Shown here one piece after another: positions 10,498-48,877 of a stretch of 64,000 nucleotides of DNA. The translations under genes were made by a program, and so were the position numbers. The first letter of the stretch is position 1, and each line of letters starts with the position of its first letter. The notes under the pieces are model-generated. The model saw only the letters and a list, made by a program, of their open reading frames with translations. It searched no databases and was not told the DNA's origin. This DNA is from Salinivenus sp. (lineage in GTDB: Bacteria; Bacteroidota; Rhodothermia; Rhodothermales; Salinibacteraceae), in assembly GCA_018609755.1 (NCBI GenBank), contig JAHENZ010000022.1:1-64000 (forward strand), written 5' to 3'.

Positions 10498-11916
10498 ATG
10501 GCTACCCACTACGACTGCGTCATCATTGGCAGCGGCCCCGGCGGCTACGAAACGGCCGTGCGCGCTTCGCAGCTCGACATGAAGACCGCAATTGTCGAAA
10601 AGGATAAGCTCGGCGGTGTGTGCCTCAACGTCGGCTGCATCCCGACGAAGGCCCTGTTGAAAAGTGCCGAGGTGATGGCGGAGTCCACCCACCTGTCCGA
10701 CTTCGGGCTGGAGCTGGACGGCTCCGTCTCCCCCAACTTCCCGAAGGTGATTGAACGAAGCCGTGGGGCGGCCAACCAGATGAATCAGGGCGTCCAGTTC
10801 CTGATGAAGAAAAACGACATTGACGTGCTGTACGGCCACGGTCGGCTCGCCGACGACAGCACTGTTGAGATCGAGCCGTCGGTGAACATGGACGGAGAGG
10901 AAATCGGCGAGGAGCAAACGGTGACGGCCGACCACATTATCCTGGCCACCGGCGCACGCCCGAACGAGCTCCCCTTCCTCCCCATCGACGGCGAGAACGT
11001 GATCAGCTCGACGGAGGCGATGCTTCAGACGGAGCAGCCTGACTCATTGGTGATCGTGGGGGCCGGCGCTATTGGGGTCGAGTTTGCCTACTTCTACCAC
11101 CACATGGGGACGGACGTGACGCTCATCGAGGTGATGGACCGCATCGTCCCCAACGAGGACAAGGACGTGTCCAAGGAGTTGGCGAAGGCGTACAAGCGGA
11201 TGGGCATTGACGTGATGACGAGCGCTGGCGTGCAGGGGGTGGACGACAGCGACACGCCGCTGGAGGTGGAAGTGGAAACCGACGACGGCACTGAACACAT
11301 CGAGTGCGACCAGGTCCTCTCCGCCGTGGGCGTGGTGGGCAACGTCGAAGACATCGGCCTCGAAGAAGTGGGCGTCGAAACCGACGGCAACGACATCGTG
11401 GTGGACGACTACTACCGCACCAACGTGGACGGCGTGTATGCCATCGGCGACGTGACCGGGGCGCCCTGGCTCGCGCATAAGGCCAGTCACGAGGGCATCC
11501 TCTGCATCGAGAAGATCGCAGGCCACGACGTGCGCCCCATCGACAAGAAGGACATCCCGGCCTGCACCTACTGTCAGCCCCAGATCGCGTCCGTGGGCTA
11601 TACCGAAGAGGAGGCCAAGGAGGAAGGCTACGACGTGAAGGTGGGCAAATTCCCCTTCAAGGCCAACGGCAAGGCCGCAGCACTGGGTCACCAGGACGGC
11701 TTCGTCAAAACGATCTACGACGACAAGTACGGCGAATTCCTGGGCTGCCACATCATCGGCAACGACGCAACGGAGTTGATCGCCGAGGTGGTGGCCGCGC
11801 GCAAACTGGAAACGACGGGGCACGAGATCATGGAGTCGATGCACCCGCACCCAACGCTGTCGGAGGCAGTGATGGAGGCGACCCGCGCCGCCTACGGCCA
11901 GCCCATCAACATCTAA
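10498..11916 (+). CDS. lpdA: dihydrolipoyl dehydrogenase
   Basis: DCVIIGSGPGGYETAVRASQLDMKTAIVEKDKLGGVCLNVGCIPTKALL; TYCQPQIASVGYTEEEAK; C-term EVVAARKLETTGHEIMESMHPHPTLSEAVMEA. Confidence 0.97.
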   Translation: MATHYDCVIIGSGPGGYETAVRASQLDMKTAIVEKDKLGGVCLNVGCIPTKALLKSAEVMAESTHLSDFGLELDGSVSPNFPKVIERSRGAANQMNQGVQFLMKKNDIDVLYGHGRLADDSTVEIEPSVNMDGEEIGEEQTVTADHIILATGARPNELPFLPIDGENVISSTEAMLQTEQPDSLVIVGAGAIGVEFAYFYHHMGTDVTLIEVMDRIVPNEDKDVSKELAKAYKRMGIDVMTSAGVQGVDDSDTPLEVEVETDDGTEHIECDQVLSAVGVVGNVEDIGLEEVGVETDGNDIVVDDYYRTNVDGVYAIGDVTGAPWLAHKASHEGILCIEKIAGHDVRPIDKKDIPACTYCQPQIASVGYTEEEAKEEGYDVKVGKFPFKANGKAAALGHQDGFVKTIYDDKYGEFLGCHIIGNDATELIAEVVAARKLETTGHEIMESMHPHPTLSEAVMEATRAAYGQPINI

Positions 11917-11942
11917 CTCCCGGCCTCTTCCGTCCCATTCCG

Positions 11943-11973
11943 GCCCCGTTCTCCTCGGAGGACGGGGCTTTTT
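11943..11973 (+). terminator. Rho-independent terminator downstream of lpdA
   Basis: GCCCCGTTCTCCTCGGAGGACGGGGC hairpin followed by TTTTT. Confidence 0.85.
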
Positions 11974-12079
11974 CTGTATCAGAATGGAGTACGGGGGATT
12001 TCCTCCAGGCACTGCTCTCGTCCAACGAGAACGATCGAATCCCCGCCTTGCACTGTTTCTTCACTGCCGGGGGCTCTTA

Positions 12080-12241
12080 GAGACCGTTTTGATTTCACAC
12101 GCTGGCGTCAGGAGTCTCCCGTGACGACTGTAACCTGGTCGATTCCAGCCGTTCTACGCTCCAACATTCCTCGCGAACCTCCTGGGGAAAACGGAACGGC
12201 ATCGTTAATGAACACGACTCAAAAATCAAAACACCAGTCTC
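12080..12241 (+). mobile_element. TIR-bounded element family 2, copy B (degenerate)
   Basis: Left GAGACCGTTTTGATTT; right end reverse complement GAGACTGGTGTTTTGATTT; shares subterminal TCTCC(C)GTGACGACTG with the reverse complement of copy A. Confidence 0.55.
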
Positions 12242-12714: not shown

Positions 12715-13755
12715 ATGGCAAAGTCTAACCACGTCACGTTAGAAGACATTGCCAAGAAACTTGGCATTACCAAGGTCACCGTTTCCAAGTCGCTTCGCGA
12801 CCACCCCGACATCTCTACGTCGACGAAAGAAAAGGTAAAAGAAAAGGCCGACGAACTGGGATACAGGCGAAATCGACTGGCACAGTCTCTCACTCTAAAT
12901 AAGACAAACACGATTGGGGTCATCGTCCCAAAAATCTCGCATACGTTTTTCTCAGACACGCTAGAGGGAATCAATAGAGTAGCATACGACAACGACTACG
13001 AAATCGTACTGTGCGTGTCAGAAGAGAAAGAAGAACGAGAAAAATCTCACGTTGACACCTTGCTGTCGATGCAAGTGGATGGTCTCCTCATCTCTGTCTC
13101 GGAGGAAACATCCAGCCCCGAGCACCTCCAGGAAATCACCAATCAAGGCGTCCCCCTCGTCCTCTTCGATCGTCGGATTGACGGCGTCGACGCCGCGTGC
13201 GTGACGGTGGACGACCAGGGAGGTGCCTACAAGGCTACCGAGCACGCACTCGATCGAGGCCTCACCGAAATCGTTCACATCTCGGGATACTCGAACGTCA
13301 ACATCGGGAAAAACCGGCAAGCGGGATACGAGAACGCCCTCCGTGATCATGGGCTCACGCCCGACGACGAGTGGATCATTGAGGGCGGATTTGGAGAGGC
13401 CGACGGGTATTGGGGTGGGGTTGAGATGATCGAGCGTGGAATCAATCCGGATGCGATTTTTGCCGTCACCTTCCCGGTGGCACTGGGGGTTGAGGACGCG
13501 ATTCGCCGAAAGAAGCCATCAATCAGAGACAGCCTGCAGATCTACTCGTTCGGCCAGCACGAGCTCAATCGCTTCTTCTCGAACCCGCACACCTCCGTTC
13601 ATCAGCCCGCCAAGAAGATTGGTAGCGAGGCGATGTCCTTGCTTCTAAAACGGATGGACGACCCGGACGCCGACATTTTGGACGTTGAACTCCCGACGCA
13701 CATTGTGGAAGTCCAGGAAGATGCCCTCCCCCCCTACCTGGACGACGGTTCCTAA
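12715..13755 (+). CDS. LacI-family transcriptional regulator, likely regulator of the pectin/uronate locus
   Basis: HTH VTLEDIAKKLGITKVTVSKSLRDHPDISTSTKEKVKEKADELGYRRN plus periplasmic-binding-like domain; start at MAKSNH. Confidence 0.95.
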   Translation: MAKSNHVTLEDIAKKLGITKVTVSKSLRDHPDISTSTKEKVKEKADELGYRRNRLAQSLTLNKTNTIGVIVPKISHTFFSDTLEGINRVAYDNDYEIVLCVSEEKEEREKSHVDTLLSMQVDGLLISVSEETSSPEHLQEITNQGVPLVLFDRRIDGVDAACVTVDDQGGAYKATEHALDRGLTEIVHISGYSNVNIGKNRQAGYENALRDHGLTPDDEWIIEGGFGEADGYWGGVEMIERGINPDAIFAVTFPVALGVEDAIRRKKPSIRDSLQIYSFGQHELNRFFSNPHTSVHQPAKKIGSEAMSLLLKRMDDPDADILDVELPTHIVEVQEDALPPYLDDGS

Positions 13756-13757
13756 TA

Positions 13758-13780
13758 CCGAATCCATTTACAGGATTCGG
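13758..13780. terminator. hairpin downstream of LacI gene (possible terminator, no clear T-tract)
   Basis: CCGAATCC-ATTTACA-GGATTCGG inverted repeat immediately after the stop codon. Confidence 0.4.
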
Positions 13781-13886
13781 GGATGTAGGTATGGAAGTAT
13801 GAACACATGCACGTGGAAGACGCGTCCATACTGCAGCGTCAGCTATGATTCTTACGGTAGGTCAAATTCGAAAAAGCGACCCGTTT

Positions 13887-13915
13887 GTGGCGCCGTTGGA
13901 GTCCAACGGCGCTAC
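13887..13915. repeat. dispersed palindromic repeat, copy 1
   Basis: GTGGCGCCGTTGGAGTCCAACGGCGCTAC; same core at 15555, 32152 and 52766. Confidence 0.85.
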
Positions 13916-14052
13916 AGGGGCGATTTTGAACGGAATCGCAAAACATGTGCGCGGCGTGTCGGGACTCTTCATGCCCAAACATTGACGGTGGACGCAGCAA
14001 TACCTACATACTTCCAAATTTCCATACACCAGCGAATCTTGCGGCGTTGGTG

Positions 14053-15471
14053 TCATTCCCCCAGCCGATACGTCTCTTTGGCGAGCCCATAGGCCAGCGC
14101 GTGGGCCATCTCGTGCGCCTCTTTTTCGGTGACGATGTGCCGCGCCACGAGACTCGCCAGCACGTTGGCGTCCACGCGCCGCGACAAGTCGTGACGGGCG
14201 GGGATGGAGCAAAAGGCCCGCGTGTCGTCGTTGAAGCCGGCCGTGTTGTAGATGCCGGCCGTCTCAATCGTGCGCCGCCGGTACCGTTGCATGCCTTCGA
14301 TGCTGTCGTGAAACCACCAGGCCGGCCCGAGAGTGAGGCAGGGGTAGTGACCGGCCAACGGCGCCAGCTCCCGCGAGTAGGTCGACTCGTCTAGCGTGAA
14401 CAGGACGAGGGTGAAGTCGGGGTCGTTGCCGTACGCGTTGAGTAGTGCTTCGAGGTTTTCCGTAAACTCGGTCCGCACGGGAATGTCGCCGCCCTTATCG
14501 GGTCCGAACCGCTCGTACACGGCCTGATTGTGGTTCCGGTAGGCGCCGGGATGGAGCTGCATCACGAGCCCGTCCTCGGTGCTCATGCGGGCCATTTCCA
14601 TGAGCATGTTCGCCTGAAAGAGCCGTTCGTCCTCTTCGTCCGCCTCTCCGCGGAGGGCCTTCTGAAAAATCGCGTCCGCCTTGGCCTCCGAGAGCTCGTT
14701 CGTATATGGCTCGAGCACGGCGTGGTCGGTGGCCGTGGCGCCCATGGACTTGAAGAACGCCCGCCGGTCTTCCAGGGCCTCGATAAAGTCCGCGTACGAG
14801 TCGATGGTCATCCCGCACCGCTCGCGGAGCTGGTCGAGGTGATCATCCCAGTCGGGCGCGGTGATGGTGAAGAGGGCATCGGGGCGGAAGGTCGGCCGCA
14901 CGGTCCCGTCCCAGTCCGACTCTCGAATGGCCTTGTGATGCTCCAGCGAATCGGTGGCCGCGTCGGTGGTGCACAGCACCTCCACGTCGAAGTCCTCAAA
15001 CAGCGCGCGGGGCCGGAAGTCCTCCGACTGCAGCTGCTCGTTGATCTGGTCGTAAACGTGCTGAGCCGAGTCCCCGTCCAGCTTGTGCTCGACCCCGAAG
15101 ACCTCGGACATCTCGTGGTCCAGCCACGCCCCGGTCGGCGTCCCGCGAAACAGGTAGTAATGCTCGGCAAAGCGCTGCCAGATTTTGCGGGGATCCTCCT
15201 CCACCGGCGTGCCGTCGCGGGTGGGAATCCCCAGATCCTCCAGCCGAACGCCTTGGGAGTAGAGCATCCGGAAGATGTAGTGATCCGGAATGATGAGCAG
15301 CGAGGTCGGCTCCGGAAACGGCTCGTCGTTGGCGAGGAGGCGGGGCTCGACGTGCCCGTGGGGGCTCACGATCGGGAGATCCTTCGTCTCCTCGTACAGC
15401 GACCGAGCGATGCGCCGAACGGACGGATTGGGGTCGAAGTATCTGTCGTCGTGAAGGGTCAGAGGCTCCAT
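14053..15471 (-). CDS. uxaC: glucuronate/galacturonate isomerase
   Basis: ETKDLPIVSPHGHVEPRLLANDEPFPEPTSLLIIPDHYIFRMLYSQGV...; C-term LARHIVTEKEAHEMAHALAYGLAKETYRL. Confidence 0.95.
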   Translation of the reverse strand: MEPLTLHDDRYFDPNPSVRRIARSLYEETKDLPIVSPHGHVEPRLLANDEPFPEPTSLLIIPDHYIFRMLYSQGVRLEDLGIPTRDGTPVEEDPRKIWQRFAEHYYLFRGTPTGAWLDHEMSEVFGVEHKLDGDSAQHVYDQINEQLQSEDFRPRALFEDFDVEVLCTTDAATDSLEHHKAIRESDWDGTVRPTFRPDALFTITAPDWDDHLDQLRERCGMTIDSYADFIEALEDRRAFFKSMGATATDHAVLEPYTNELSEAKADAIFQKALRGEADEEDERLFQANMLMEMARMSTEDGLVMQLHPGAYRNHNQAVYERFGPDKGGDIPVRTEFTENLEALLNAYGNDPDFTLVLFTLDESTYSRELAPLAGHYPCLTLGPAWWFHDSIEGMQRYRRRTIETAGIYNTAGFNDDTRAFCSIPARHDLSRRVDANVLASLVARHIVTEKEAHEMAHALAYGLAKETYRLGE

Positions 15472-28803: not shown

Positions 28804-28818
28804 ACTTAACCGGTAACT
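28804..28818. promoter_or_regulatory. putative LacI-family operator upstream of susC
   Basis: ACTTAACCGGTAACT, 58 bp upstream of susC start; shares TWACCGGTWA core with 28988 and 36960. Confidence 0.5.
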
Positions 28819-28987: not shown

Positions 28988-29001
28988 ATTAACCGGTAAC
29001 T
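28988..29001. promoter_or_regulatory. putative LacI-family operator, distal site upstream of susC
   Basis: ATTAACCGGTAACT followed by degenerate TTATCGGTAATTTT. Confidence 0.45.
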
Positions 29002-31235: not shown

Positions 31236-32024
31236 TCAGAGGGTTTTTGAAGAGAAGCCGCCGTCAACGGCCACGTTCGCCCCGGTAATAAAGGAGCCCG
31301 CCGTATCGGAGGCCAGCAGGAGTGCAGTGCCCACCAGTTCGTTGGCCTCCCCAAAGCGGCCCGCGGGCGTCTGCCGCATGATGTCATTGATGCGCTCGTC
31401 GGAAAGAATCTCCTTGTTTTGCTCGGCAGGGAAGAAGCCCGGCGCAATGCAGTTGACTCGAATGCCCTCCGGCGCCCACTCTCGGGCCAAATTCTCGGAC
31501 AGATTCACGAGCCCGGCCTTCGAAGCACCGTAGGTAAACACTTTCGAAAGAGGGGTCAGCGCCGCCATCGAACTAATGTTGATGACGCTCCCGCCCTCGT
31601 CCTGATCGAGCAGGTACTCCCCCACGACCTGACACGCCAGAAACACGCCCTTGAGGTTTACCTCCATGATCTTGTCCCACTCCTCTTCCTCAATTTCCAG
31701 GAAGGGCGTGGCGGAATTGACCCCGGCGCTGTTCACCAGCACGTCGATACGGCCAAACTGATCATCCACCTGCTCTACGAGGGAGTGCAGGTCCGACTTC
31801 GAGGTCGTATCGCACCGGATAAAGGTGGCATCTCCTGCGTCCGACAGGTCACTGAGGGTTTCGGCTCGTTTCGTCCCGGTCTCCTCGTCTCGGCCCACGA
31901 CCACCGTATTCGCCCCAGCGCGACACAGCCCCTCGGCGAGCGCCCCGCCGATCTCCCCCGTGGCGCCGATAACGATGGCCGTCTGGCCCTCCAGACCGAA
32001 CTGTTCATTCAGATAATTGCTCAT
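31236..32024 (-). CDS. SDR-family oxidoreductase, probably D-mannonate oxidoreductase type
   Basis: GQTAIVIGATGEIGGALAEGL; VLVNSAGVN; YGASKAGLVNLSENLAREWAPEGIRVNCIAPGFF; position next to uxaE-like gene. Confidence 0.88.
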   Translation of the reverse strand: MSNYLNEQFGLEGQTAIVIGATGEIGGALAEGLCRAGANTVVVGRDEETGTKRAETLSDLSDAGDATFIRCDTTSKSDLHSLVEQVDDQFGRIDVLVNSAGVNSATPFLEIEEEEWDKIMEVNLKGVFLACQVVGEYLLDQDEGGSVINISSMAALTPLSKVFTYGASKAGLVNLSENLAREWAPEGIRVNCIAPGFFPAEQNKEILSDERINDIMRQTPAGRFGEANELVGTALLLASDTAGSFITGANVAVDGGFSSKTL

Positions 32025-32310: not shown

Positions 32311-33882
32311 CTACTGCCCGATTGTGCCCACACTCTCAATGTGGTGGCGGAAGTGGCCTTCGAGGGTGTCGAAGTGCTCTTCCTCGTGCTCGTTCAACAG
32401 TTCGAAGAAGCGCTCCTTGAACCGCCACGCCCCGTCCTGCTTCGCGGTCAGGACCGACCCGTACGTAATGTGCAGGAGCTGTCGGCCGTTGTTTTCGTCG
32501 AGATAGGTCGCCTCCAGTTCGGCGTCGTCCACATCGCCCGGATCCGGAATTGCACTCAGATCCGTGCTCACGTGATAGGTCTTCCGGTCCGCCTCGAAGC
32601 GATCAAAGGCGTACGCAACGATCCCCCGAAAAAACTCCGGCGCATGGCGAGCCGGAATGCGGAGAGCCTCCAGGTAACTCGTGCCCGCCGTCTTGAGGTG
32701 CACTTTCGGCCCGGCCTGGCGCCCCAGAATTGGAAACACCGTAAACTTGTCGCTGCCCGAATGCACGCTGAGCTTGTAGCCCCCGCACGCCTGCAGGATG
32801 ATCACGTGCTTCTTCAGTGCCTCCTCGAAGGCGTCCGGATCGCCGATAAAGTCGATCCCCTTCTCGAAGTCTCCCACGAACCGCGGCGCGAGGCTCGTCA
32901 CCTCCACCCCAAGGCGGTCTAGCTCCGCCGCCACGAAGTAGTGCTCGCGCGGATGCGTAGGCTGATCAGTCTCGTCCACGGACATCTCCAGGTCGTATTC
33001 GGCGTCGGGCCGGTCGGCGGCGTACCGGGCGGCCACGTGATCGGCCAGCGTCTTCGTGTTTGCGATTGCCGCACTGTACTTCACCGACGCCCGCTTGAGC
33101 TCTTCTTCGGTAAAGGAAATCTCCAGCCGTCCGGCGTCACTCTCCAAAACGAGGGGCTCTACGGTGTAGTGCTCCAGGTAGGCCTCGGGCGTAACGTCGA
33201 GCATGTCCCAGGGAAGCGCTTGGAAGCGGCGCGTCAGTTCGTTCGCGTCCAGGTGATCGGCCTCATTGTCGACATGGTCCGACGGGTCGATGGTGTACAT
33301 CGTGTATCCGGTCTCGAAGCACCGGTCGATGTCCTCGGGCGTCTTCAGGTGATCGGCGTCGGCTCCGAAGCCCCCGGTGTACCCTTCCTGAAAGACTGCC
33401 CAGGTCACGTCGTCCATCACCTCCTGCGGAGAGCGTCCGGTGCGCTCCATCTCGCGGATCGACTGCTGCGCCAGGATCGGCTGCGCGTTCAGCGCCTCAC
33501 AGGCGCGAATGTGGCCCGGCGTGGCCAGCCCCAGGCGATCGCCGCACCCAATGGCGGGGGTCGTCCCCAACGGCTGCGGCGCCGTCCAGGAAAAGAGTCC
33601 CCGGAGCTGTTGGGCATTCTCGGGCGAGCACGGACACACAGCCACCGTCTCCGACGACGATTCAATCACCGCCTCGCGTTCGAAGGGACCCTCCTCGGCC
33701 TCCCCCACGACAATCAGCTTCAGATCGTGGCCGTGCCGAGCCAGCGCGTAGACCGTCCCGTCCCGTTCGCGAACGGACTGTTCGTAAAGGTGCCACTCTC
33801 CCCCCTCCTCTTCGAGAAGGTTCTGGAGATCGTCGACGGCAATAGAGGTGAGATCGGCGGAAGTAGCCATCTTTTCGGTCAA
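32311..33882 (-). CDS. uxaE: tagaturonate epimerase family protein (UxaE-like)
   Basis: LGTTPAIGCGDRLGLATPGHIRA; QEGYTGGFGADADHLKTPEDIDRC; GGYKLSVHSGSDKFTVFPILGR; HVKTAGTSYLEALR-type region. Assigned from recalled family pattern plus uronate gene context. Confidence 0.8.
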   Translation of the reverse strand: MTEKMATSADLTSIAVDDLQNLLEEEGGEWHLYEQSVRERDGTVYALARHGHDLKLIVVGEAEEGPFEREAVIESSSETVAVCPCSPENAQQLRGLFSWTAPQPLGTTPAIGCGDRLGLATPGHIRACEALNAQPILAQQSIREMERTGRSPQEVMDDVTWAVFQEGYTGGFGADADHLKTPEDIDRCFETGYTMYTIDPSDHVDNEADHLDANELTRRFQALPWDMLDVTPEAYLEHYTVEPLVLESDAGRLEISFTEEELKRASVKYSAAIANTKTLADHVAARYAADRPDAEYDLEMSVDETDQPTHPREHYFVAAELDRLGVEVTSLAPRFVGDFEKGIDFIGDPDAFEEALKKHVIILQACGGYKLSVHSGSDKFTVFPILGRQAGPKVHLKTAGTSYLEALRIPARHAPEFFRGIVAYAFDRFEADRKTYHVSTDLSAIPDPGDVDDAELEATYLDENNGRQLLHITYGSVLTAKQDGAWRFKERFFELLNEHEEEHFDTLEGHFRHHIESVGTIGQ

Positions 33883-33979: not shown

Positions 33980-35275
33980 TTAGAAGCCGAACACCCCAGG
34001 CAGCCAGAGGCTCAGCTCCGGAATGAACGTGACGAGCATCAGCGCCACGACCATCGCCGCAAACAGCGGGAGGAGGGGCTTCACCAGCTTCTCGATGGTC
34101 GTGTCGGCCACGGCGGCCCCCACGAACAGCACCGTCCCCACTGGCGGCGTGCAGAGGCCCACGCACAAGTTTAGCACCAGCATGATGCCAAAGTGGATGG
34201 GGTCGAGGCCCAGCTCGGTCACCACCGGCAAAAAGATCGGCGTAAAGATCAGCACGGCCGGCGTCATGTCCATGAACGTGCCGACCACCAGCAGAATCAG
34301 ATTGATAATCAGGAGGATCAAGACAAAGCTGTCGGTGAGCCCGAGGAGCCCGTCGCTGATTTGCTGTGGCAGGTGATCGTAGGAAAGAACCCACGACATC
34401 GCGATGGATGTGCCGATGAGCAGCATCACGATGGCCGTGGAGCGCACTGTTTCCAACAGAATGTCCGGCAGGTCTTCAGTCCCGATTTCCCGATACGAAA
34501 AGGCCAGTACGAGAGCGTAGAGCACGGCGACGGCGGCAGCTTCGGTTGCCGTGAAGATGCCGGCGACGATGCCGCCGATCACGACAATCAACATTAAGAG
34601 GCTGGGCACCGCCTCCAGGAAGCGTGTGCCTACGGTCCAGAGACTTTGTGTGTCCCCCACCGGATAGTCCTCGCGGTACGCCCACACAGCGGCGACCGCC
34701 ATCAGACTCAGGCCCACGATGATGCCCGGCACGTACCCGGCCAAGAAGAGAGCTCCGATCGATAGGCCGCCCCCCGCCAGCGAGTACACGATGAGGATGT
34801 TGCTGGGGGGAATGAGAAGTCCCGTCGTGGCCGACGTGATGTTTACGGCCGCACTGAATTCTTTGTCGTAGCCCTCCTCTTCCATTTGCGGGGCCATGAA
34901 GCCGCCCACGGCGGAGGCTGCCGCCACGGCCGAGCCGGAAACCGCCCCCATGAGCATGGCCGCTACGACATTCACGTGGGCGAGCCCTCCGGGCACCATG
35001 CCGATGAGCGACTTCGCGAAGCCCACCAGGCGACTCGCGATGCCGCCGCGGTTCATGAGCTGTCCTGCGAGAATGAAGAACGGAATGGCGAGCAGAGCAA
35101 AAGAGTCCAGCCCCGTCGCGAGCTGCTGAGCGATGGTCGTGACCGACGGAGTCAGGGTGATACTCAGCAGCATGGTCGCCACCGACGCGAGCCCGATACA
35201 AAAGGCCACCGGTACCCCCAGGAGAAGGAGGAGAACAAACACGAGCCCGAGCACGAGAAGAGCAGTAAGGGCCAT
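33980..35275 (-). CDS. TRAP transporter large permease (DctM-like)
   Basis: About 12 hydrophobic segments; GVPVAFCIGLASV; IPFFILAGQLMNRGGIASRLVGFAKSLIGMVPGGLAHVNVVAAMLMGAVSGSAVAAASAVG. Confidence 0.95.
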   Translation of the reverse strand: MALTALLVLGLVFVLLLLLGVPVAFCIGLASVATMLLSITLTPSVTTIAQQLATGLDSFALLAIPFFILAGQLMNRGGIASRLVGFAKSLIGMVPGGLAHVNVVAAMLMGAVSGSAVAAASAVGGFMAPQMEEEGYDKEFSAAVNITSATTGLLIPPSNILIVYSLAGGGLSIGALFLAGYVPGIIVGLSLMAVAAVWAYREDYPVGDTQSLWTVGTRFLEAVPSLLMLIVVIGGIVAGIFTATEAAAVAVLYALVLAFSYREIGTEDLPDILLETVRSTAIVMLLIGTSIAMSWVLSYDHLPQQISDGLLGLTDSFVLILLIINLILLVVGTFMDMTPAVLIFTPIFLPVVTELGLDPIHFGIMLVLNLCVGLCTPPVGTVLFVGAAVADTTIEKLVKPLLPLFAAMVVALMLVTFIPELSLWLPGVFGF

Positions 35276-35278
35276 CGG

Positions 35279-35809
35279 CTATGCGTCGGTTGATGAGGAA
35301 GAGAGGTCCCACGCGGCATCGCCAGAACGCTCTTCTTGCAGGGCTCGAACGTGTCCACTGACGTGGACGAGGCTGTAAAATGTCATCAGAGCCCCCGTCA
35401 GGGGCAAGACGACGTACACGTACCCGATCGGCAGATTGAGGGAGGCTGAGGTCTGCCCCAGACTGAGCTGGATGTAGACGAGGCGGAGTCCGCCCCCAAT
35501 CAGCACCGCAACCGCAAAGAGAATGATGCAGGCCTGAATGACGATTCGGAGCCAATGACGGGCCCGGCCGTCGAGCCGCTCCGGAAGCAGTTCGAGCGCC
35601 AGATGGTCGTGCTGTCCCACGCCGTAGCCCGCTCCCAGCACCCCCACCCAGATGAGTAGGAACCGTGCAAGCTCTTGGGTAAAAGAACTCGGGTCTCCCA
35701 GCACGTACCGGCTGAAGACCTGCCAGAGCACGTTTAGGACTGCGGCCCCCATGAGCCCCACGAGGACGGGCCCCAGAATGTGGTCAACGATTTGTTTTGC
35801 TCGATTCAT
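35279..35809 (-). CDS. TRAP transporter small permease (DctQ-like)
   Basis: Four TM segments, NVLWQVFSRYVLGDPSSFTQELARFLLIWVGVLGAGYGVGQHDHLALE; directly upstream of DctM. Confidence 0.93.
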   Translation of the reverse strand: MNRAKQIVDHILGPVLVGLMGAAVLNVLWQVFSRYVLGDPSSFTQELARFLLIWVGVLGAGYGVGQHDHLALELLPERLDGRARHWLRIVIQACIILFAVAVLIGGGLRLVYIQLSLGQTSASLNLPIGYVYVVLPLTGALMTFYSLVHVSGHVRALQEERSGDAAWDLSSSSTDA

Positions 35810-35879
35810 ACTCCCTGTGCAATCTCACGTCAAAAAGCCATCGATTCTCTTCTCGGCCCCCCACCGGGACTCTGCGGAA

Positions 35880-36926
35880 TCATTCAACAGGCGTCTCGTC
35901 ACCGGACGGATCCTGCTCCGGTTCTTCGACCTCCAGCGCCCGTACCTCCTGGGCGAGTTCGTACACCTTCGGCTCCTGCTCTTCGTAATGGTCGTAGACC
36001 GGCTGGACCGCCTTCACGAAGGGCTTCGTGTCCGGTCGTATAATTTTGACCCCGGCCTTCTTCACGATGCGTAGCGCCTCCTCCGTGGCTTCGGCCCAGA
36101 GCTCCTTCTGGTACTGTGCCGACTCGTCGGCCGCCTCCTGGAGCCAGGTCTGTTGTTGCGGCGTGAGGCGCTCCCAAAGGTGCGTGCTTACCAGCAACAC
36201 GTCCTGCGGCGCAGTGTGCTTGTCGAGGCTGTAGTATTCGCAGAGCTCGTAGTGATTGGTGAGGTGAAAGCTGGGCGGGTTGTTCTCCGCACCGTCCACC
36301 ACCCCTTGTTGGAGCGCCGTATAAAGCTCGCCAAAAGAGATCGGCGTGGCCGCGCCGCCCATCTCGTTCACCATCCGAATAGACACCGGACTACTCATCG
36401 TCCGGATCTTCATGCCCTGCAAGTCGGCCGGCGTTCGAATCGGCTCATCTGTGGTGTAGAAGCTTCGGCTGCCGGCATCGTAGAAGGTGAGCCCCCGCAG
36501 CCACACGTCCTGACTCGACAACAGAATTCTACGCCCGATCTCCCCTTCCATGACCGCGTACCGGTGCGCATCGGACCGAAAAACGTACGGAAGTCCAAAG
36601 ACCTTGTAGGGCGCCGCAAAGCTCTCCATGACTGCGGACGACACTTTCGTAATCCCGAGACTTCCCACCTGCAACAGCTCCAACAACTCTCGCTCCGATC
36701 CCAGCTGTTCACTCGGATATATCTCCATCCGCATTGTGCTGTCGGACTTTTGCGCCAGACGATCGGCCATGTCCTGCATGGCCTTGTGCACCGGATGCGA
36801 CGGACTCAGGGCATGCCCGAGTCGAATCACGGTCTCGTCCTCGTTGACGCTACATCCCAAGCCTGCGAACGCGCAAACACAGAGGATGGCGAGCGCGGTG
36901 GTGAACTTCCTACTGAAGGTGCTCAC
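35880..36926 (-). CDS. TRAP transporter substrate-binding lipoprotein (DctP-like)
   Basis: Lipobox FAGLGCS; IRLGHALSPSHPVHKAMQDMADRLAQKSDSTMRMEIYPSEQLGSERELLELLQVGSLGITKVSSAVM. Confidence 0.95.
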   Translation of the reverse strand: MSTFSRKFTTALAILCVCAFAGLGCSVNEDETVIRLGHALSPSHPVHKAMQDMADRLAQKSDSTMRMEIYPSEQLGSERELLELLQVGSLGITKVSSAVMESFAAPYKVFGLPYVFRSDAHRYAVMEGEIGRRILLSSQDVWLRGLTFYDAGSRSFYTTDEPIRTPADLQGMKIRTMSSPVSIRMVNEMGGAATPISFGELYTALQQGVVDGAENNPPSFHLTNHYELCEYYSLDKHTAPQDVLLVSTHLWERLTPQQQTWLQEAADESAQYQKELWAEATEEALRIVKKAGVKIIRPDTKPFVKAVQPVYDHYEEQEPKVYELAQEVRALEVEEPEQDPSGDETPVE

Positions 36927-36959: not shown

Positions 36960-36975
36960 AAGTAACCGGTTACTT
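36960..36975. promoter_or_regulatory. putative LacI-family operator upstream of dctP
   Basis: Perfect 16-bp palindrome AAGTAACCGGTTACTT, 34 bp upstream of dctP start. Confidence 0.6.
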
Positions 36976-42223: not shown

Positions 42224-44605
42224 TTACGGCCCGTCGAGCTGGCTCCCGTCCGGAAGGGTCGGCTGCTCGCGAGCAATCTCCAGCGACTCCTGGTAGATCT
42301 CTTCCAGGTCGAGCACCTCCTGGTCGCTTCTGGCTCGCAGAAAGATGGGCGTCTTGTAGAGGGGCGTTTCGACCGTGACCGTGGTCGGTCCCTCCACCGA
42401 AGCGGCGTCCGGATTCCAGTAGTCGACCCAGCGGCCCTCGGGCAAATAGACGTCCCGCTCGCGTGCCCCTTTCTCAATCACCGGCGCGACGAGATAATCG
42501 TCCCCGTAGAGGTACTCGTCCCAGATCGACCAGGCCTTCTCGTCGCTCGGATACTCCACAAACAACGGCCGCATGATGGGCACGCCCGTCTCGTGGGCCT
42601 TTTGGGCGTAGTGGGCCGAGTAGTCGGACAGATGTTGGTGGAGAAGCGCATACGTCCGCCAGGTGGCGATGGCCTCGGCGTTATATCCGGTCCCATCGGG
42701 CATATCCCACGGCGCACGGTCGTTCAGTGGACCGATCTCCATGATGGGGCTGAATGCACTCATAGCAAGCCATCGTGACAAGAGTTCCTCCGTGGTCGTC
42801 CCCCCCCAGTACCCTCCGGTGTCGCTCCCCCAGATTGGAAAGCCCATGACCGCCGCACGCAGCCCGCCGATGAGCGTGTTGCGAAAGCCCAGCCACGTGG
42901 CGCGCGTGTCGCCCGCCCAAAAGGCGTTGGCGTAGCGCTGAGACCCTGCATACCCGGCTCGCGGCATGACCACGACATCATCGCGATGGGTCCGGGCCAC
43001 CTCCTGTACAGCCTTCGCGTAGAGCACCGGGTACTCGTTCTGCACCTCATGCATCGACCGCCCGTCGTGGGCATAGGCGTCCCGGGCATCACTTACAAAC
43101 TCCTCCGCCCGATCGAGCTTGAACGCCGCCACTCCGTCGTCCAGCAGACGCGCCACGTAGTCCTGCCACCACGCCACCGCCTCCGGATTCGTAAAGTCGA
43201 TCATCGTGTACGACCGGTCGGCAATGGTAACGAACGGACGAATCTCTTCCGCTGTCTCTGCCTCTCGGACCTGCCGGCGCAGTGCGGTTCGAATCTGAGT
43301 TGGACTCATGTCCTCCGCCACGAAGTCGTCCGAGGGTCCCTCTTCCCGGCCGAGATGAAGGCGGGCGGCCACCTCAAGTGGAAACCCATCGAGGGCTTCC
43401 ACCTGCTCGAGAATCTCCGGCTTCAGACTCAGCAGATACTCGTCGCTCTGCATTTTCTCCGCACTCATCTCCTTCAGGCCCATGTCCACCATGCCCTTCG
43501 ACGGCAACGCGTACCCCCGACGGAGGGCTACATCCGCCATGTCGCCCATCACCCAGGGAGCAATCCACACCAGAAACTCCGAGTCGTACTCCTGCTTAAC
43601 CCAATCGATCATCGACTCGGCATTCGGGAACCGCTCCGGATCCCACTCGAAATCGTCGTAGCCCCGCACGCCCTTCGCCCACGGGCGGTCCACCCAGTAC
43701 ACGTCCAGCGGAATGTCGAGGGCGTCCATCATGAGAGCGTCCTCGTACACCATGGAGTTGTACGGGCCGCGGTACGCCGTGCCGTCATAAAGCGTGTCCC
43801 GGTTCACGTGATTGTCCCGCCAGCGCCACGTGCCATACGCCCACTTGGGCGGCGTGGCGGGCCGCCCCGTCACCGCGGTGTACTGATTGAGGACGGTCTT
43901 CGGAGTCCCCGGAAAGAGGTGGTACGACAGCGAGGCACTGTCGAATGCAAATCGCACCCGCTCGTCGTCGGCCTTTGCCACGTCGAACATGCCGAGGTGC
44001 GTATTGTCGACGTAGAGGCCGTAGCCCACACTCGACAGGTAGAAGGGCGTGTAGAGCGACACCGTACCGTTCACGTCCATTTTGACGTGATGGCCCCGCC
44101 GGTCCAGCGCCACGGCGACCGACGAGTCGCGGGGCACGTCGTCGTCATTTCCACGCACCCGCTCGGTGAGGCCGTGGAAGTGCTCCCCGTCGCGGGCGGC
44201 CAGCACCTCGCCCACGCGTTGAATGCCCTCATTTGGAACGAATTGCACCGACACGCGCCACCCGCCTGTGGCCTGCGGCTCAATCTGGACGAGGGCCTCT
44301 CGCCCGTCGGTCGTCTCGTAGCGCGCGTCCAGGGCCGTCGACCGCTTCGTGAACGAGAGCGGGTCGGTAAGATACTGCACACCCTCGGCCGTCACGTAGA
44401 AGAGGGACGAGCGAGCCGTGTCGGGGCGATGCTGACGCGCGAGCGCCTGCCCTCCGTCCGTCGACGTGAAGGCATACGAGAACGGCGCCCGAGACACTTC
44501 AAGCGCGTACGACGATGACGTCTGTGCGACGACTGTCCCTGGCGCACCTCCGAGCACGAGTCCGAGTGCCAGCAACACGAATGCGAGCGGGCGAGTCCGG
44601 GGCAT
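42224..44605 (-). CDS. glycoside hydrolase family 31 protein, secreted
   Basis: Signal peptide; ATPPKWAYGTWRWRDN; PLDVYWVDRPW; FKLDRAEEF; FWAGDTRATWLGFRNTLIGGLRAAVMGFPIWGSDTGGYWG; SPIMEIG. Confidence 0.93.
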   Translation of the reverse strand: MPRTRPLAFVLLALGLVLGGAPGTVVAQTSSSYALEVSRAPFSYAFTSTDGGQALARQHRPDTARSSLFYVTAEGVQYLTDPLSFTKRSTALDARYETTDGREALVQIEPQATGGWRVSVQFVPNEGIQRVGEVLAARDGEHFHGLTERVRGNDDDVPRDSSVAVALDRRGHHVKMDVNGTVSLYTPFYLSSVGYGLYVDNTHLGMFDVAKADDERVRFAFDSASLSYHLFPGTPKTVLNQYTAVTGRPATPPKWAYGTWRWRDNHVNRDTLYDGTAYRGPYNSMVYEDALMMDALDIPLDVYWVDRPWAKGVRGYDDFEWDPERFPNAESMIDWVKQEYDSEFLVWIAPWVMGDMADVALRRGYALPSKGMVDMGLKEMSAEKMQSDEYLLSLKPEILEQVEALDGFPLEVAARLHLGREEGPSDDFVAEDMSPTQIRTALRRQVREAETAEEIRPFVTIADRSYTMIDFTNPEAVAWWQDYVARLLDDGVAAFKLDRAEEFVSDARDAYAHDGRSMHEVQNEYPVLYAKAVQEVARTHRDDVVVMPRAGYAGSQRYANAFWAGDTRATWLGFRNTLIGGLRAAVMGFPIWGSDTGGYWGGTTTEELLSRWLAMSAFSPIMEIGPLNDRAPWDMPDGTGYNAEAIATWRTYALLHQHLSDYSAHYAQKAHETGVPIMRPLFVEYPSDEKAWSIWDEYLYGDDYLVAPVIEKGARERDVYLPEGRWVDYWNPDAASVEGPTTVTVETPLYKTPIFLRARSDQEVLDLEEIYQESLEIAREQPTLPDGSQLDGP

Positions 44606-44658: not shown

Positions 44659-45357
44659 TCAGTCACTGCCGAGGCGGCGAATTCGAAGATCGCGGAACCG
44701 ATAGACCTTGCCATCTTCGCCATGGTGCTGAATGCCGATGACGCCCTCCCGGTCGACGGTGTCGCGAACGGCGGTGGTCATCTCTCCATTCACCCAGATC
44801 TTGAGGCTGTCGCCCGCGGCCCGGATTCGATACTCGTTCCAGCCGGTGGGCTTAAACGCGTCTCCGTGCTCTTTCCGAAAGGAGACGCCCGCGAGGGAGT
44901 CCTCCTCCGGCGGATGCAGCCAGCCGCGACGCCCCTCGTCGTAGAGCCCACCGGACCACGCCCGATCGGTCGGGTCCACCTCGGCCTGATACCCATATAC
45001 GCGGTTCGTGTCTACCTGCGCCCGAAACATGAAGCCGGAGTTCGACTCGCGATCCGGCAGGCGAACCTCTCCCTCGAACACGAAATTGCCGTAGGTATCC
45101 TCGGTAACGAGGAAGAATTTGTCGTCGGCCTGCAATTCGATTGTGCCATTTTCGACACGGGCCTCGCCCCAGTCGTACGGATTCCGCCAGCCATCGAGCG
45201 ACTCGCCATCAAAGAGCTGGGTCCACTCCACTGTAGCCTCTGTAGCACTTTCTCCTCCAGATGAGGAGTCATCGGAGGACTGGCAGCCAGTGAGAAGAAC
45301 AGCAATCGGAAGAAAAGCGAAAAGAACGCCTCGCCGAAGTGCCGTGGAATACGTCAT
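44659..45357 (-). CDS. DUF1080 / 3-keto-disaccharide hydrolase-domain lipoprotein (paralogue 1)
   Basis: Lipobox VLLTGCQ; WTQLFDGESLDGWRN...GNFVFEGEVRLPDRESNSGFMFRAQ...GWNEYRIRAAGDSLKIWVNGEMTT. Confidence 0.9.
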   Translation of the reverse strand: MTYSTALRRGVLFAFLPIAVLLTGCQSSDDSSSGGESATEATVEWTQLFDGESLDGWRNPYDWGEARVENGTIELQADDKFFLVTEDTYGNFVFEGEVRLPDRESNSGFMFRAQVDTNRVYGYQAEVDPTDRAWSGGLYDEGRRGWLHPPEEDSLAGVSFRKEHGDAFKPTGWNEYRIRAAGDSLKIWVNGEMTTAVRDTVDREGVIGIQHHGEDGKVYRFRDLRIRRLGSD

Positions 45358-45407
45358 GAGTCTGCGGTCTGAATGTCCGGAGGTCTCGAAAGGCAGCATG
45401 GATTCCA

Positions 45408-46790
45408 TCAAACACTTGGCTCCCAGCCGGACTCGTACTCGCGGCTCCAAAGCTGCATCGCCTCCTCGTCGTCGACAATTTTGCCAGTGTCGGGGTCGGT
45501 CTGGAGGGTATGCCCGGTGCGCTGGGCAATGTTGCCGAGGTGACACAGCAAAACGCTCTTGCGTCCTTCCTCAATTGGGGAATGCGGCTCCTCTTCCCCC
45601 CGAATCGCCGCCAGAAAATTGGCAACGTGACGATCTGTGTTCGACCCGCCCCCCACGGTGCCGGTCCCACTGACCTGCTCTCCGGTCTGAGCCTCGTTGG
45701 CATACTCGATGAGGTTGTCGTCATTGTCGTACACCACGTACCCGCCGCGATCAACGATGAGCGTTCCTTCGGTGCCGTGAATGGACGCGCCGCGGCCGCC
45801 GCCCGGATCGCCATCCGTCCCCTTTAGCGGATTGGCGTTGCAGCTGCGTCCTTCCCACGCGATCATCTTGTCGTCGCCGAACTCATAGCTGGCCACCTGC
45901 GTGTCGTAGGCCTCCCAGTCGTCGTCGTAGTGGAAGCGTCCCCCGCTGGAGGTGACCTTCGTGGGGTGATCCACGTCGAGCGCCCAGCGGCAGACATCAA
46001 TCTCGTGGGTCCCGTTGTTGCAGATCTCCGCCGTGCCCCAGTGCCAGCGCCAGTGCCAGTTATAGTGCACGAGGTTTTCCATGTAGTCGCGGCGCGGGGC
46101 CGGCCCCTGCCAGAGCTCATAGTTGAGCCAGTCGGGGGCCTGCGCAGGCGTCTTCAAATCGAGCGGCCCGCGGTCGTTGGCGTACCAGGCCCGCCCGTAG
46201 TACGGCTCGCCAATGATGCCGTCCCGAATCTTCTGAACGGCCTCAATTGAGCGGGGAGAGGACCGCTGCTGGTTGCCCATCTGCACGACGAGGTCCGAGT
46301 GCTTCTGCTGTGCCTCCAGCAGCAGTTCGCCTTCGTGCGGGTTGTGGCTGCACGGCTTCTCGACGTAGACGTGCTTTCCCGCATCCATCGCGAGGAGCGT
46401 GGCGGGGGCGTGCCAGTGATCCGGCGCCGCAATCGCAATCGCGTCCAGATCGTCATTTTCCAGCATGCGGCGCACGTCGGGTACGCCCTCCGGCTGCCGC
46501 TCCTGCAACGGCTCCCCCCCATCCGGGTCCGTAATCGACGCAATGGCACGATCGATCGCCCGCGAGTCAACGTCGCATACGTAGCCGACTTCCGCCCCCT
46601 CCGTACGCGCAAACACTTCGGTGAGGTAATGGCCTCGGCTGTTCACGCCCATCACGCCCACAACGACCCGATCGTTGGGCGCCCCGACTCCGAACGCTGG
46701 GGATAATGATCCAGCCACGCTGAGCCCGACGCCGGCCGCAGCTGTACGCTTGAGAAAATCGCGACGATGTACGCCGTCCAAGTTGCCCAT
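45408..46790 (-). CDS. Gfo/Idh/MocA-family oxidoreductase with Tat-type signal
   Basis: RRDFLKRTAAAGVGLSVAG; VVVGVMGVNSRGHYLTEVFART; DAIAIAAPDHWHAPATLLAMDAGKHVYVEKPCSHNPHEGELLLEA. Confidence 0.93.
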   Translation of the reverse strand: MGNLDGVHRRDFLKRTAAAGVGLSVAGSLSPAFGVGAPNDRVVVGVMGVNSRGHYLTEVFARTEGAEVGYVCDVDSRAIDRAIASITDPDGGEPLQERQPEGVPDVRRMLENDDLDAIAIAAPDHWHAPATLLAMDAGKHVYVEKPCSHNPHEGELLLEAQQKHSDLVVQMGNQQRSSPRSIEAVQKIRDGIIGEPYYGRAWYANDRGPLDLKTPAQAPDWLNYELWQGPAPRRDYMENLVHYNWHWRWHWGTAEICNNGTHEIDVCRWALDVDHPTKVTSSGGRFHYDDDWEAYDTQVASYEFGDDKMIAWEGRSCNANPLKGTDGDPGGGRGASIHGTEGTLIVDRGGYVVYDNDDNLIEYANEAQTGEQVSGTGTVGGGSNTDRHVANFLAAIRGEEEPHSPIEEGRKSVLLCHLGNIAQRTGHTLQTDPDTGKIVDDEEAMQLWSREYESGWEPSV

Positions 46791-46869
46791 TAGAGAATCA
46801 GATTGATCAGAGATTGGCGACAGGGAACCATTCAGGTGCAGGCAGAGCGGCGGTCCTACGCTTCGTTTC

Positions 46870-47673
46870 CTACTCGCCGGCGGGGAGCTCCCGGATTTTG
46901 ACGTTGCGGAACCAGAAGTCGTTGCCGTGATCCTGCAAGACGATGTGGCCGGCTCGTCGCGTCCGAAAGCCCTCGATGTCTGCGTACTTGCTGGCCGCAA
47001 ACAGGGAGTCAAATTCGGCGGTGTCCAGGTTGTATTCCACCACCTTCTCGCCGTTGAGCCAGTGCTCCCCGTGATTTCCGCGAAAGACCACCCGGGTCTG
47101 ATTCCATTCCCCCACTGGCTTCAGCGATTTGTTATCGTTGGGAGGAATCAAGTCGTAGAGTCCGGCGGCGCGATGGCTCGGCTCTTCCGAATCGGGGTGC
47201 CGCTTATCGTCGAGAAGCTGGTACTCAAACCCGAGCGCGGCGTACTGCGGCTCGTGGGTCGTCGAAAGCGAGTCGGAGACGTTGTACTTGATGCCGCTAT
47301 TCCCCCCCTCACTCGCCTTCCACTCCAGTTTGAGCTCGAAGTCGCGGTAGGTGTCGGTCGTCATGATGTCGCCGCCCTCCAGCGGCTGGCCGTCCGGGGC
47401 AGTGGGCACCTCCCCGCTCTCGACCTTCCGGATCGTGCCGTCCAGAATTTTCCAGTGGCCCTTCGGAATGGAATCGCGACCGAGTCCCGTCCAGCCGTCG
47501 AAGCTGGTGCCGTCGAAGAGAAGCGTCCAGCCCGCCTCCTGCTCGGCCTGAGTCAGCGTATTCGCGGCCGTCGATTGGGCCTCTTCTCCATCGTCGTCCG
47601 AACTGCTTGACGTGCAGGCAATCCCCGAAACGAGGAGGATTCCGACGAGCAAAACCGTAGAAATCGTGCGCAT
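46870..47673 (-). CDS. DUF1080 / 3-keto-disaccharide hydrolase-domain lipoprotein (paralogue 2)
   Basis: Lipobox LVSGIACTSSSS; GWTLLFDGTSFDGWTG...YRDFELKLEWKASEGGNSGIKYNV...GEWNQTRVVFRGNHGEHWLNGEKVVEY. Confidence 0.92.
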   Translation of the reverse strand: MRTISTVLLVGILLVSGIACTSSSSDDDGEEAQSTAANTLTQAEQEAGWTLLFDGTSFDGWTGLGRDSIPKGHWKILDGTIRKVESGEVPTAPDGQPLEGGDIMTTDTYRDFELKLEWKASEGGNSGIKYNVSDSLSTTHEPQYAALGFEYQLLDDKRHPDSEEPSHRAAGLYDLIPPNDNKSLKPVGEWNQTRVVFRGNHGEHWLNGEKVVEYNLDTAEFDSLFAASKYADIEGFRTRRAGHIVLQDHGNDFWFRNVKIRELPAGE

Positions 47674-47845
47674 AACCAGTATATTCTCTCAAACTTGCGT
47701 GTGTGAAGACCGTCGTACCCCCGTCAGCACGAGGACAAAAGACCGAAACCGCTTCCAATAACAGTCGAAACGAATACCACCTGGCCAATGGGGACTGGGA
47801 CCCGAAAACACGAGGAGACGTTCGTGCTGTCTCGCTCAGCGCGAG

Positions 47846-47861
47846 ACTTATCCGGTTAAGT
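47846..47861. promoter_or_regulatory. putative LacI-family operator upstream of DUF1080 paralogue 2
   Basis: ACTTATCCGGTTAAGT near-palindrome, related to 28804, 28988 and 36960. Confidence 0.4.
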
Positions 47862-47917: not shown

Positions 47918-48877
47918 TCACCGATCTACGTCCTCGGTATGCGCTTCTCCGTCCAGATATGGCTGCACCTCCGCCCAGGTCGGGATGCCCTCCGAGTCAC
48001 CCGTGACGGTCGTAGCCAATCCGCCGGCGACATTGCCAAGTCGGAGCGATCGTCCCACGGACCATTCTCGGAGCTGTCCGGCCAAATACCCGGCGGTGAA
48101 GGCATCCCCGGCCCCCACAACGTCGACCACCTCCACGTCGATGGCCGTTCGACGTTCGAGGTCGCCGTTCCCATTCACGGCTAATGCCCCCTTCTCTCCC
48201 AGTCGCACGACGACCTGACGAGGCCCCATTTTACGCAGTGCCCGTGCCGCCTCGGCCGGGTCTTCCTCATCAGTCAGCAGCGTGGCCTCGCCCGCCCCGG
48301 TCAGCACGGTGTGGACGTACGGCATCATCTCAAGAAGCTCCGCACGGGCCTCCTCTTCCGACCAGAGTTTTCGACGGACGTTGGGATCGAGCGATACGGC
48401 CACATCCTCGGCCTCTGCAATCTGCAGGGCCTCCCACACCGTCTCCCGACAGGACGCACTCAGGGCCGGCGTAATGCCGGTAAGGTGGAGATACTCCGCC
48501 TGCGCCACGTATTCTGCATCGAGATCGGACGGGACCATGCGACTGGCAGCAGAATCGTCGCGGTAGTAGTAGACGCGGGTCAGGTCGGAGCGGCGGCGCT
48601 CTTTAAAGTATACGCCCGTGGGGGCCTCCTCGTCTTCCACGACCCGAGAGGTGTCCACGCCCTCACCCCGGATCGCTGACTGCACACAGGCCCCAAACTC
48701 GTCTGCCCCCACCCGGCTCATCCACCCCGTCTCGTGTCCGAGGCGGGCAAGTCCAATGGCCACGTTGGATTCAGCCCCGCCGACGTATCGCTCAAACTGG
48801 CGGGCGTGGCGCAGCAATCCCGACTGCGTCGGCGTCATCTGAATCATGGACTCGCCCAGCGTTACGACGTCAAGCAT
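47918..48877 (-). CDS. kdgK: PfkB-family sugar kinase, probably 2-keto-3-deoxygluconate kinase
   Basis: VTLGESMIQMTP; YVGGAESNVAIGLARLGHETGWMSRVGADEFG; LDPNVRRKLWSEEEAR; VVDVVGAGDAFTAGYLAG. Confidence 0.85.
   Translation of the reverse strand: MLDVVTLGESMIQMTPTQSGLLRHARQFERYVGGAESNVAIGLARLGHETGWMSRVGADEFGACVQSAIRGEGVDTSRVVEDEEAPTGVYFKERRRSDLTRVYYYRDDSAASRMVPSDLDAEYVAQAEYLHLTGITPALSASCRETVWEALQIAEAEDVAVSLDPNVRRKLWSEEEARAELLEMMPYVHTVLTGAGEATLLTDEEDPAEAARALRKMGPRQVVVRLGEKGALAVNGNGDLERRTAIDVEVVDVVGAGDAFTAGYLAGQLREWSVGRSLRLGNVAGGLATTVTGDSEGIPTWAEVQPYLDGEAHTEDVDR

Follow-up and report, generated by a model that had tools for sequence, protein, structure and literature searches.

Layout of the locus

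We analysed a stretch of 64,000 nucleotides from Salinivenus sp. (GenBank assembly GCA_018609755.1, contig JAHENZ010000022.1, positions 1 to 64,000; hereafter the window), in which three co-directional genes encode a DUF1080 protein (DUFc, P0002), an oxidoreductase of the Gfo/Idh/MocA superfamily with a twin-arginine (Tat) export signal (GFO, P0001) and a second DUF1080 protein (DUFn, P0003) [Table 1]. This triad, together with its neighbouring genes for a GH31 family protein and a 2-keto-3-deoxygluconate (KDG) kinase-like PfkB protein, had been described from the letters alone in a first-pass annotation, and every element was found in its place. Both DUF1080 proteins match PF06439 (3-keto-disaccharide hydrolase, DUF1080) far above the cut-off of 26.8 bits (160.5 bits for DUFc and 137.9 bits for DUFn), GFO carries the N- and C-terminal Gfo/Idh/MocA domains of Pfam, and the kinase-like protein reaches 254.6 bits with NF040938, which is under the family cut-off.

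The open frame listed for GFO is longer than the gene given here, and the Tat motif indicates the ATG at 46790 as its start. The protein scores 19.2 bits against the NCBIfam profile TAT_signal_seq (cut-off 16.7), its twin-arginine (RR) motif is nearly invariant in an alignment of 34 relatives, and the host genome encodes TatC. Both DUF1080 proteins had been called lipoproteins, which holds for DUFn with its textbook lipobox (LTGC); the lipobox of DUFc (GIAC) is weaker, so its lipoprotein status is likely but less sure. A dehydrogenase and a DUF1080 protein encoded together, both with predicted export, also occur in five of the loci that we compared (L130, L012, L132, L131 and L133; G, C and L numbers denote genomes, contigs and loci).

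Table 1. Genes and operator-like sites of the window discussed in the text
Feature	Position	Strand	Remarks
DUFc (P0002), C-type DUF1080	46870..47673	-	Exported, probable lipoprotein; likely 3-keto-glycoside eliminase/hydratase
GFO (P0001), Tat-exported Gfo/Idh/MocA oxidoreductase	45408..46790	-	Likely glycoside/uronide 3-dehydrogenase
DUFn (P0003), N-type DUF1080 lipoprotein	44659..45357	-	Lipobox LTGC; putative catalytic partner or sugar-binding module
LacI-type operator ACTTATCCGGTTAAGT	47846..47861		Perfect palindrome, 172 bp before the DUFc start codon
GH31 family protein	42224..44605	-	PF01055 175 bits; next downstream of DUFn, 53 bp gap
KDG kinase-like PfkB sugar kinase	47918..48877	-	PF00294; upstream neighbour of the triad, same position in L130
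LacI-family regulator	12715..13755	+	PF00356/PF00532; start taken at Met43 of a longer frame
UxaC uronate isomerase	14053..15471	-	PF02614 299 bits
Operator-like core TTAACCGGTAAC	28806..28817		Upstream of pectin-locus SusC; 10/12 core positions; second identical copy at 28989-29000
SDR (short-chain dehydrogenase/reductase), D-mannonate oxidoreductase-like	31236..32024	-	NF006132 240 bits, cut-off 281 not reached; adjoins the triad in L130
UxaE tagaturonate epimerase	32311..33882	-	PF16257 540 bits; adjoins the triad in L130
TRAP (tripartite ATP-independent periplasmic) transporter genes DctM + DctP	33980..36926	-	PF06808, PF03480; probable uronate importer
Operator-like core GTAACCGGTTAC	36962..36973		Upstream of the TRAP DctP gene; 10/12 core positions

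The Gfo/Idh/MocA oxidoreductase

The PDB entries closest to GFO by sequence are 8tdf and 8tdh, both of the glucoside-3-dehydrogenase AL3, and the predicted structure of GFO (model confidence pLDDT 86.7) found 8tdf as its rank 1 fold match with a template modelling (TM) score of 0.70; other fold matches were 8tdi (P2B11 glucuronide-3-dehydrogenase), KanD2, DgpA and 1rye. Residues G48, R52, D73, E144-K145-P146, H262 and D265 are invariant in the 34 aligned relatives, and loss of the NAD(P) site was looked for and the predicted NAD-binding and EKP/His/Asp motifs were found intact. From these matches, GFO is likely a C3-dehydrogenase of glycosides or uronides.

GFO could instead be an aldose or uronate C1 oxidoreductase of the glucose-fructose oxidoreductase type that makes lactones, in which case the DUF1080 proteins would only bind or hydrolyse ordinary glycosides. 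Exported glucose-fructose oxidoreductases do belong to the same superfamily and were among the matches (1ofg and 1h6a in the sequence search of PDB, and 1rye), in both L012 and L145 the gene for DUFn is followed by one for a PTE-family hydrolase, which could be a lactonase, and L012 also has a gluconate permease. Nevertheless, the nearest matches in both sequence and fold are 3-dehydrogenases, GFO is present in 12 of the 13 genomes having DUFc, and the neighbours of GFO relatives include DUF1080 proteins and secreted AP_endonuc_2 proteins (the latter in L131, L133 and, by sequence, L148), an arrangement known from 3-keto operons; an AP_endonuc_2 partner is a signature of the 3-keto pathway. 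We regard C1 oxidation as very improbable.

Close relatives of GFO in Planctomycetota and Verrucomicrobiota (L051, L055, L060, L082 and others) have no DUF1080 gene within 10 kb and often lie beside another Gfo/Idh/MocA gene, which is indicative that this subfamily has other partners too.

The two DUF1080 proteins as halves of one protein

DUFc and DUFn share 26% identity, and comparison of the N-type and C-type profiles confirmed their common ancestry. In phmmer searches, DUFn aligned to domain 1 and DUFc to domain 2 of the two-domain protein BT3469 (PDB 4jqt), and a fused protein with both domains is encoded within 10 kb of a GFO relative in 16 of 80 cases from public genomes. In a domain tree (a quick tree with long branches), DUFn groups with the N-domains of fused proteins and DUFc falls in the clade to which the C-domains of these proteins belong. 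The halves are separate and flank GFO in the window, L130 and L012, both precede GFO in L038, and they are fused in L132. As judged from these alignments and the tree, the DUF1080 pair is the C- and N-domains of an ancient fused two-domain protein, found in many Bacteroidota, which are here separate genes. The earlier view of two paralogues acting on different anomers or steps gives way to this relation. A literature search for the function of BT3469 found no paper. In Chitinophaga (L015-L030), a DUF885 family gene adjoins the genes for the fused DUF1080 protein and GFO in many genomes.

Among PDB sequences, DUFc matched the second domain of 4jqt (177 bits), 3hbk (166 bits) and 8rr2/8tda (136-138 bits), and DUFn matched the first domain of 4jqt with 107 bits by sequence and 337 bits with the N-type profile; the DUFn model (pLDDT 81) has 4jqt as its best fold match as well. 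The DUF1080 structures matched carry the PDB labels 3-keto-2-hydroxy-glucal hydratase and 3-keto-glycoside eliminase/hydratase (enzymes of Bacteroides thetaiotaomicron). In a 3-keto-O-glycoside lyase of this bacterium, hydration is lost in the variant H275N (PMC13273386); we infer that this lyase is BT2157, whose residue 275 is the histidine of the QDHG motif by counting from the 3osd chain (265 residues of the 290-residue protein). His249 of DUFc aligns with His275 of BT2157 and is invariant among C-types, and His212 of DUFn is the matching hydration histidine and is invariant among N-types, so catalytic residues have not been lost in both proteins. DUFc is likely a 3-keto-glycoside eliminase/hydratase.

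The role of DUFn is less clear-cut, and a reading of the triad in which DUFn is a non-catalytic sugar-binding lectin, holding the substrate for its catalytic partner, is possible though on balance unlikely. The DUFn fold also resembles CBM66 modules (TM to the target up to 0.73), the position of the invariant Glu150 of C-types is Gly122 in DUFn and the N-type is always the minor partner of the C-type in fused proteins. Set against this, Q124, E126 and the hydration histidine H212 are invariant among N-types (as are R144, W173, N174 and Q210), and the resemblance to CBM66 is common to the whole DUF1080 fold. The idea of DUFn as a simple substitute for AP_endonuc_2 was weakened, as L052 and L086 each have a fused DUF1080 protein alongside both AP_endonuc_2 and GFO.

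Linkage to uronate catabolism

At the same RadC-Rho site as in the window, a genome of the same genus (G009, locus L130) carries the gene row KDG kinase-LacI-UxaE-DUFc-GFO-DUFn-SDR-MTAN, i.e., the triad lies within a uronate operon. The search for triads beside uronate genes found it there and in L012 (on the same contig as G013:C402), with the row SusC-SusD-DUFc-GFO-PhoD-DUFn-PTE-UxaC. In G017, a fused DUF1080-GFO pair of genes adjoins TRAP, UxaE and SDR genes; in G049, of another family, DUFc directly follows TRAP and UxaC genes, and in G039 it is a few genes from TRAP. TRAP genes stand beside DUFc or a fused DUF1080 gene in L132, L149 and L150, and L012 and L150 have UxaC close to DUFn or DUFc. 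Four of the 27 family genomes (G000, G009, G013 and G017) have GFO, and precisely these four, and no others, also have DUFc and full-length UxaE (Fisher p 5.7e-5, which ignores kinship). In a set of 60 genomes, the co-occurrence of DUFc and GFO has p 1.6e-8 (3.7e-5 at genus level; both values ignore kinship). By these observations, the module goes with uronate catabolism (UxaE, UxaC, TRAP, SDR and KDG kinase) and not with pectin depolymerisation as such.

In L012, GFO and DUFn are separated by a Tat-type PhoD-like phosphatase gene (10557-12218), and DUFn is followed by a gene (13014-14051) for a PTE-family hydrolase; a PTE-like gene likewise follows DUFn in L145. G011 has a seemingly decaying copy (L145 5109-7365 and L146 13670-14017), with an internal stop in DUFn, a shortened UxaC and UxaE cut at the contig end; no GFO or DUFc was found alongside it.

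The same 3-keto chemistry could conceivably act on neutral gluco- or galacto-glycosides from uronate-containing glycans, with the uronate genes merely co-induced. Neutral glucosides and disaccharides are the substrates of the characterised relatives (AL3 of 8tdf; BT2157, a 3-ketotrehalose hydrolase, and CCNA_01705, for which 3'-ketolactose hydrolysis is proposed, PMC9007349), a GH31 gene adjoins the triad in the window, and outside the family GFO-DUFc pairs are found in G031, G032 and G034, which have no UxaE. On the other hand, in G009 the triad is inside the uronate operon, flanked by UxaE and the reductase and free of intervening glycosidase genes, and a lone DUFc directly follows TRAP-UxaC in G049. 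GH31 was also rejected as a conserved partner of the triad, being absent from the L130 operon and not beside the triad in the relatives examined. On this evidence we consider neutral substrates rather unlikely here.

The LacI-type operator and the history of the site

A LacI-type operator had been proposed before the first gene of the triad, and the palindrome at this place, ACTTATCCGGTTAAGT, is exact. Nowhere else in the genome (5.0 Mb) does it match exactly, four other places match with 2 mismatches and a reversed control gave 0; in the window, the next-best 16-base match has 3 mismatches. A counterpart with 1 mismatch, ACTTAACCGATTAAGT, is in the LacI-UxaE intergenic region of L130, just upstream of UxaE, and since it heads the orthologous operon of G009, the operator is more than chance. 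The LacI of the window is the ortholog of the UxaE-adjacent LacI of L130, with a near-identical recognition helix. The window contains six 12-base operator-like cores, compared with 3.25 on average in shuffled sequence, and of these six, two precede SusC, one DctP and one DUFc; at these numbers the core positions are only suggestive, and window 16-mers at 4 mismatches were discarded as operators, being within chance numbers. A 2-mismatch palindrome (G000:C26:6736-6751, L101 1501-1516) lies 8 bp before a gene for a GH106 alpha-L-rhamnosidase, which is possibly a further member of the regulon. From these sites, a LacI regulon covering the triad, the TRAP genes and the pectin SusC/D genes is plausible.

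The first-pass annotation had linked the triad to the pectin locus of the window, with pectin side-chain oligosaccharides as substrate and the DUF1080 paralogues serving different anomers or steps. Pectinesterase, GH28, GH43 and SusC/D genes do lie 15-25 kb from the triad, and the operator-like sites before SusC and the GH106 gene would fit such a link. In G009, however, the triad is in the uronate operon, and GH28, GH88/105 above the cut-off and PL1 are absent from G009, G013, G017 and G049 (PL9, PL10, PL11 and PL22 were not searched). Conversely, GH28 occurs without the triad in G022, G028 and others. When the window was aligned with L130, the region of about 12-37 kb (12000-37100, with LacI, UxaC to DctP and the pectin genes) was missing in G009, where the flanks are about 2 kb apart, and the pectin block appears from this alignment to be a separate segment, gained or lost. 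The DUF1080 proteins, for their part, are domain partners and not recent paralogues. We judge the pectin-locus reading improbable; the tie is to uronate catabolism.

Identity between the window and G009 is 81-93% for the triad and KDG kinase, compared with 74% for SDR, 62% for UxaE and 58-59% for LacI, and in three triad-free genomes of the same genus (G003, G004 and G010) none of these genes is on that RadC side. The simplest history would be that the triad originally belonged to a uronate operon located between RadC and Rho. In the lineage of the window, a pectin block that brought along LacI, UxaE and SDR genes would then have been gained; the original copies of these three genes would have been lost, and the triad would have stayed with its operator. 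Searches of the stretch between the operator and DUFc (blastn/tblastx) gave no clear match to a UxaE remnant.

Proposed pathway

Taking the observations together, we propose that the triad is an exported module for non-Koshland 3-keto cleavage, by oxidation, elimination and hydration, which would free uronate for TRAP import under the control of LacI, and we put this at about 0.6. The proposal of an exported 3-keto glycoside-cleaving module agrees with the family, PDB and fold matches and with the predicted export signals. Homology is the basis for the class of chemistry, and gene linkage that for the uronide substrate, the less certain of the two. Tat-exported GFO, with NAD(H) already bound, would oxidise C3 of the non-reducing sugar; DUFc would eliminate the aglycone across C1-C2 and then add water; and DUFn, the ancestral partner domain as a separate lipoprotein, may help hydration or hold the substrate. 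The 3-keto sugar would be re-reduced, perhaps by the same dehydrogenase, which would close the cofactor cycle. The freed galacturonate or glucuronate (or the freed uronide-linked sugar) could then enter through TRAP and pass to UxaC, UxaE, the SDR reductase and KDG kinase, with the LacI repressor acting jointly on the module and the TRAP genes and, in this organism, also on SusC/D of the pectin locus.

Several observations weigh against this proposal. No AP_endonuc_2 (BT2156-like) lyase gene lies beside the triad in the window, and no BT2159-like second dehydrogenase is among the genes between 42 and 49 kb. GFO matches the profile NF058561 (BT_2158_fam) with 134.8 bits (E 3e-39), short of the equivalog cut-off of 750, so it is placed in a sister subfamily and is not a BT2158 equivalog, and the same profile scores a paralogue on contig C162 of the same genome higher (461.3 bits). 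DUFc and GFO are both present yet unlinked in G039, G049 and G058, and the GFO-DUFc pairs without UxaE noted above leave room for substrates other than uronides in some bacteria.

A further step would be that the C-type and N-type proteins divide elimination and hydration between them and replace the TIM-barrel isomerase-like partner, forming with GFO a self-contained periplasmic 3-keto-uronide pathway that is the main uronide-cleaving route in uronate-catabolising bacteria without GH28, GH88/105 and PL1. We rate this extension as unlikely.

Comparison with known systems

The alternative glycan-breakdown pathway of B. thetaiotaomicron BT2156-BT2159 and Alistipes AL2-AL3 was reportedly described by Nasseri et al. 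in Nature, 2024. Like that system (PDB 8tda, 8tdf, 8tdh and 8v31), the triad pairs an exported Gfo/Idh/MocA dehydrogenase with a DUF1080 protein; its proteins find their best sequence and fold relatives there, and the catalytic histidine is kept. Unlike it, the triad lacks the two adjacent genes named above and has an extra N-type DUF1080 protein, uronate genes with a LacI operator and a divergent GFO subfamily. BT3469 combines in one protein the domains that are in the window two genes flanking the oxidoreductase gene. P2B11 (8tdi) shares the Gfo/Idh/MocA fold, is among the leading fold matches and indicates that the chemistry exists on uronides, but it is only 16-17% identical to GFO and belongs to a different subfamily.

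The 3-ketolactose route of Caulobacter (LacABC and CCNA_01705, PMC9007349) likewise oxidises C3 in the periplasm and then employs a DUF1080 protein, whereas its dehydrogenase is a membrane-bound GMC/LacABC complex and not of the Gfo/Idh/MocA type; LacABC-type genes (GMC oxidoreductase and gluconate-2-dehydrogenase subunit 3) were not among the genes examined around the triad and are present on contig C162. The GlycDH-AtOGE-AtHYD-Gfo pathway of Agrobacterium (PMC10628242) follows the same logic of oxidation, elimination, hydration and reduction, but it uses TIM-barrel proteins resembling sugar isomerases as eliminase and proposed hydratase.

The same genome, which has 11 DUF1080 matches, also carries on contig C162 (L092 3342-13223) a second, more canonical 3-keto cluster, with a GMC oxidoreductase, a Tat-GFO (461 bits with BT_2158_fam), two DUF1080 proteins, a secreted AP_endonuc_2, a ThuA-like protein and gluconate-2-dehydrogenase subunit 3.

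All the part families and the logic of the pathway are already known (PMC9007349, PMC10628242, PMC13273386); what is new is that the N- and C-type DUF1080 proteins are split, that GFO belongs to a divergent subfamily and that the module is consistently tied to uronate catabolism under a LacI operator. The 3-keto route has been worked out mainly on neutral glucosides, and a module tied to uronate, if true, would extend it to uronides, whose bonds GH28, GH88/105 and polysaccharide lyases otherwise cleave. In that case, the widespread two-domain DUF1080 proteins of the BT3469 type would also gain a testable function.

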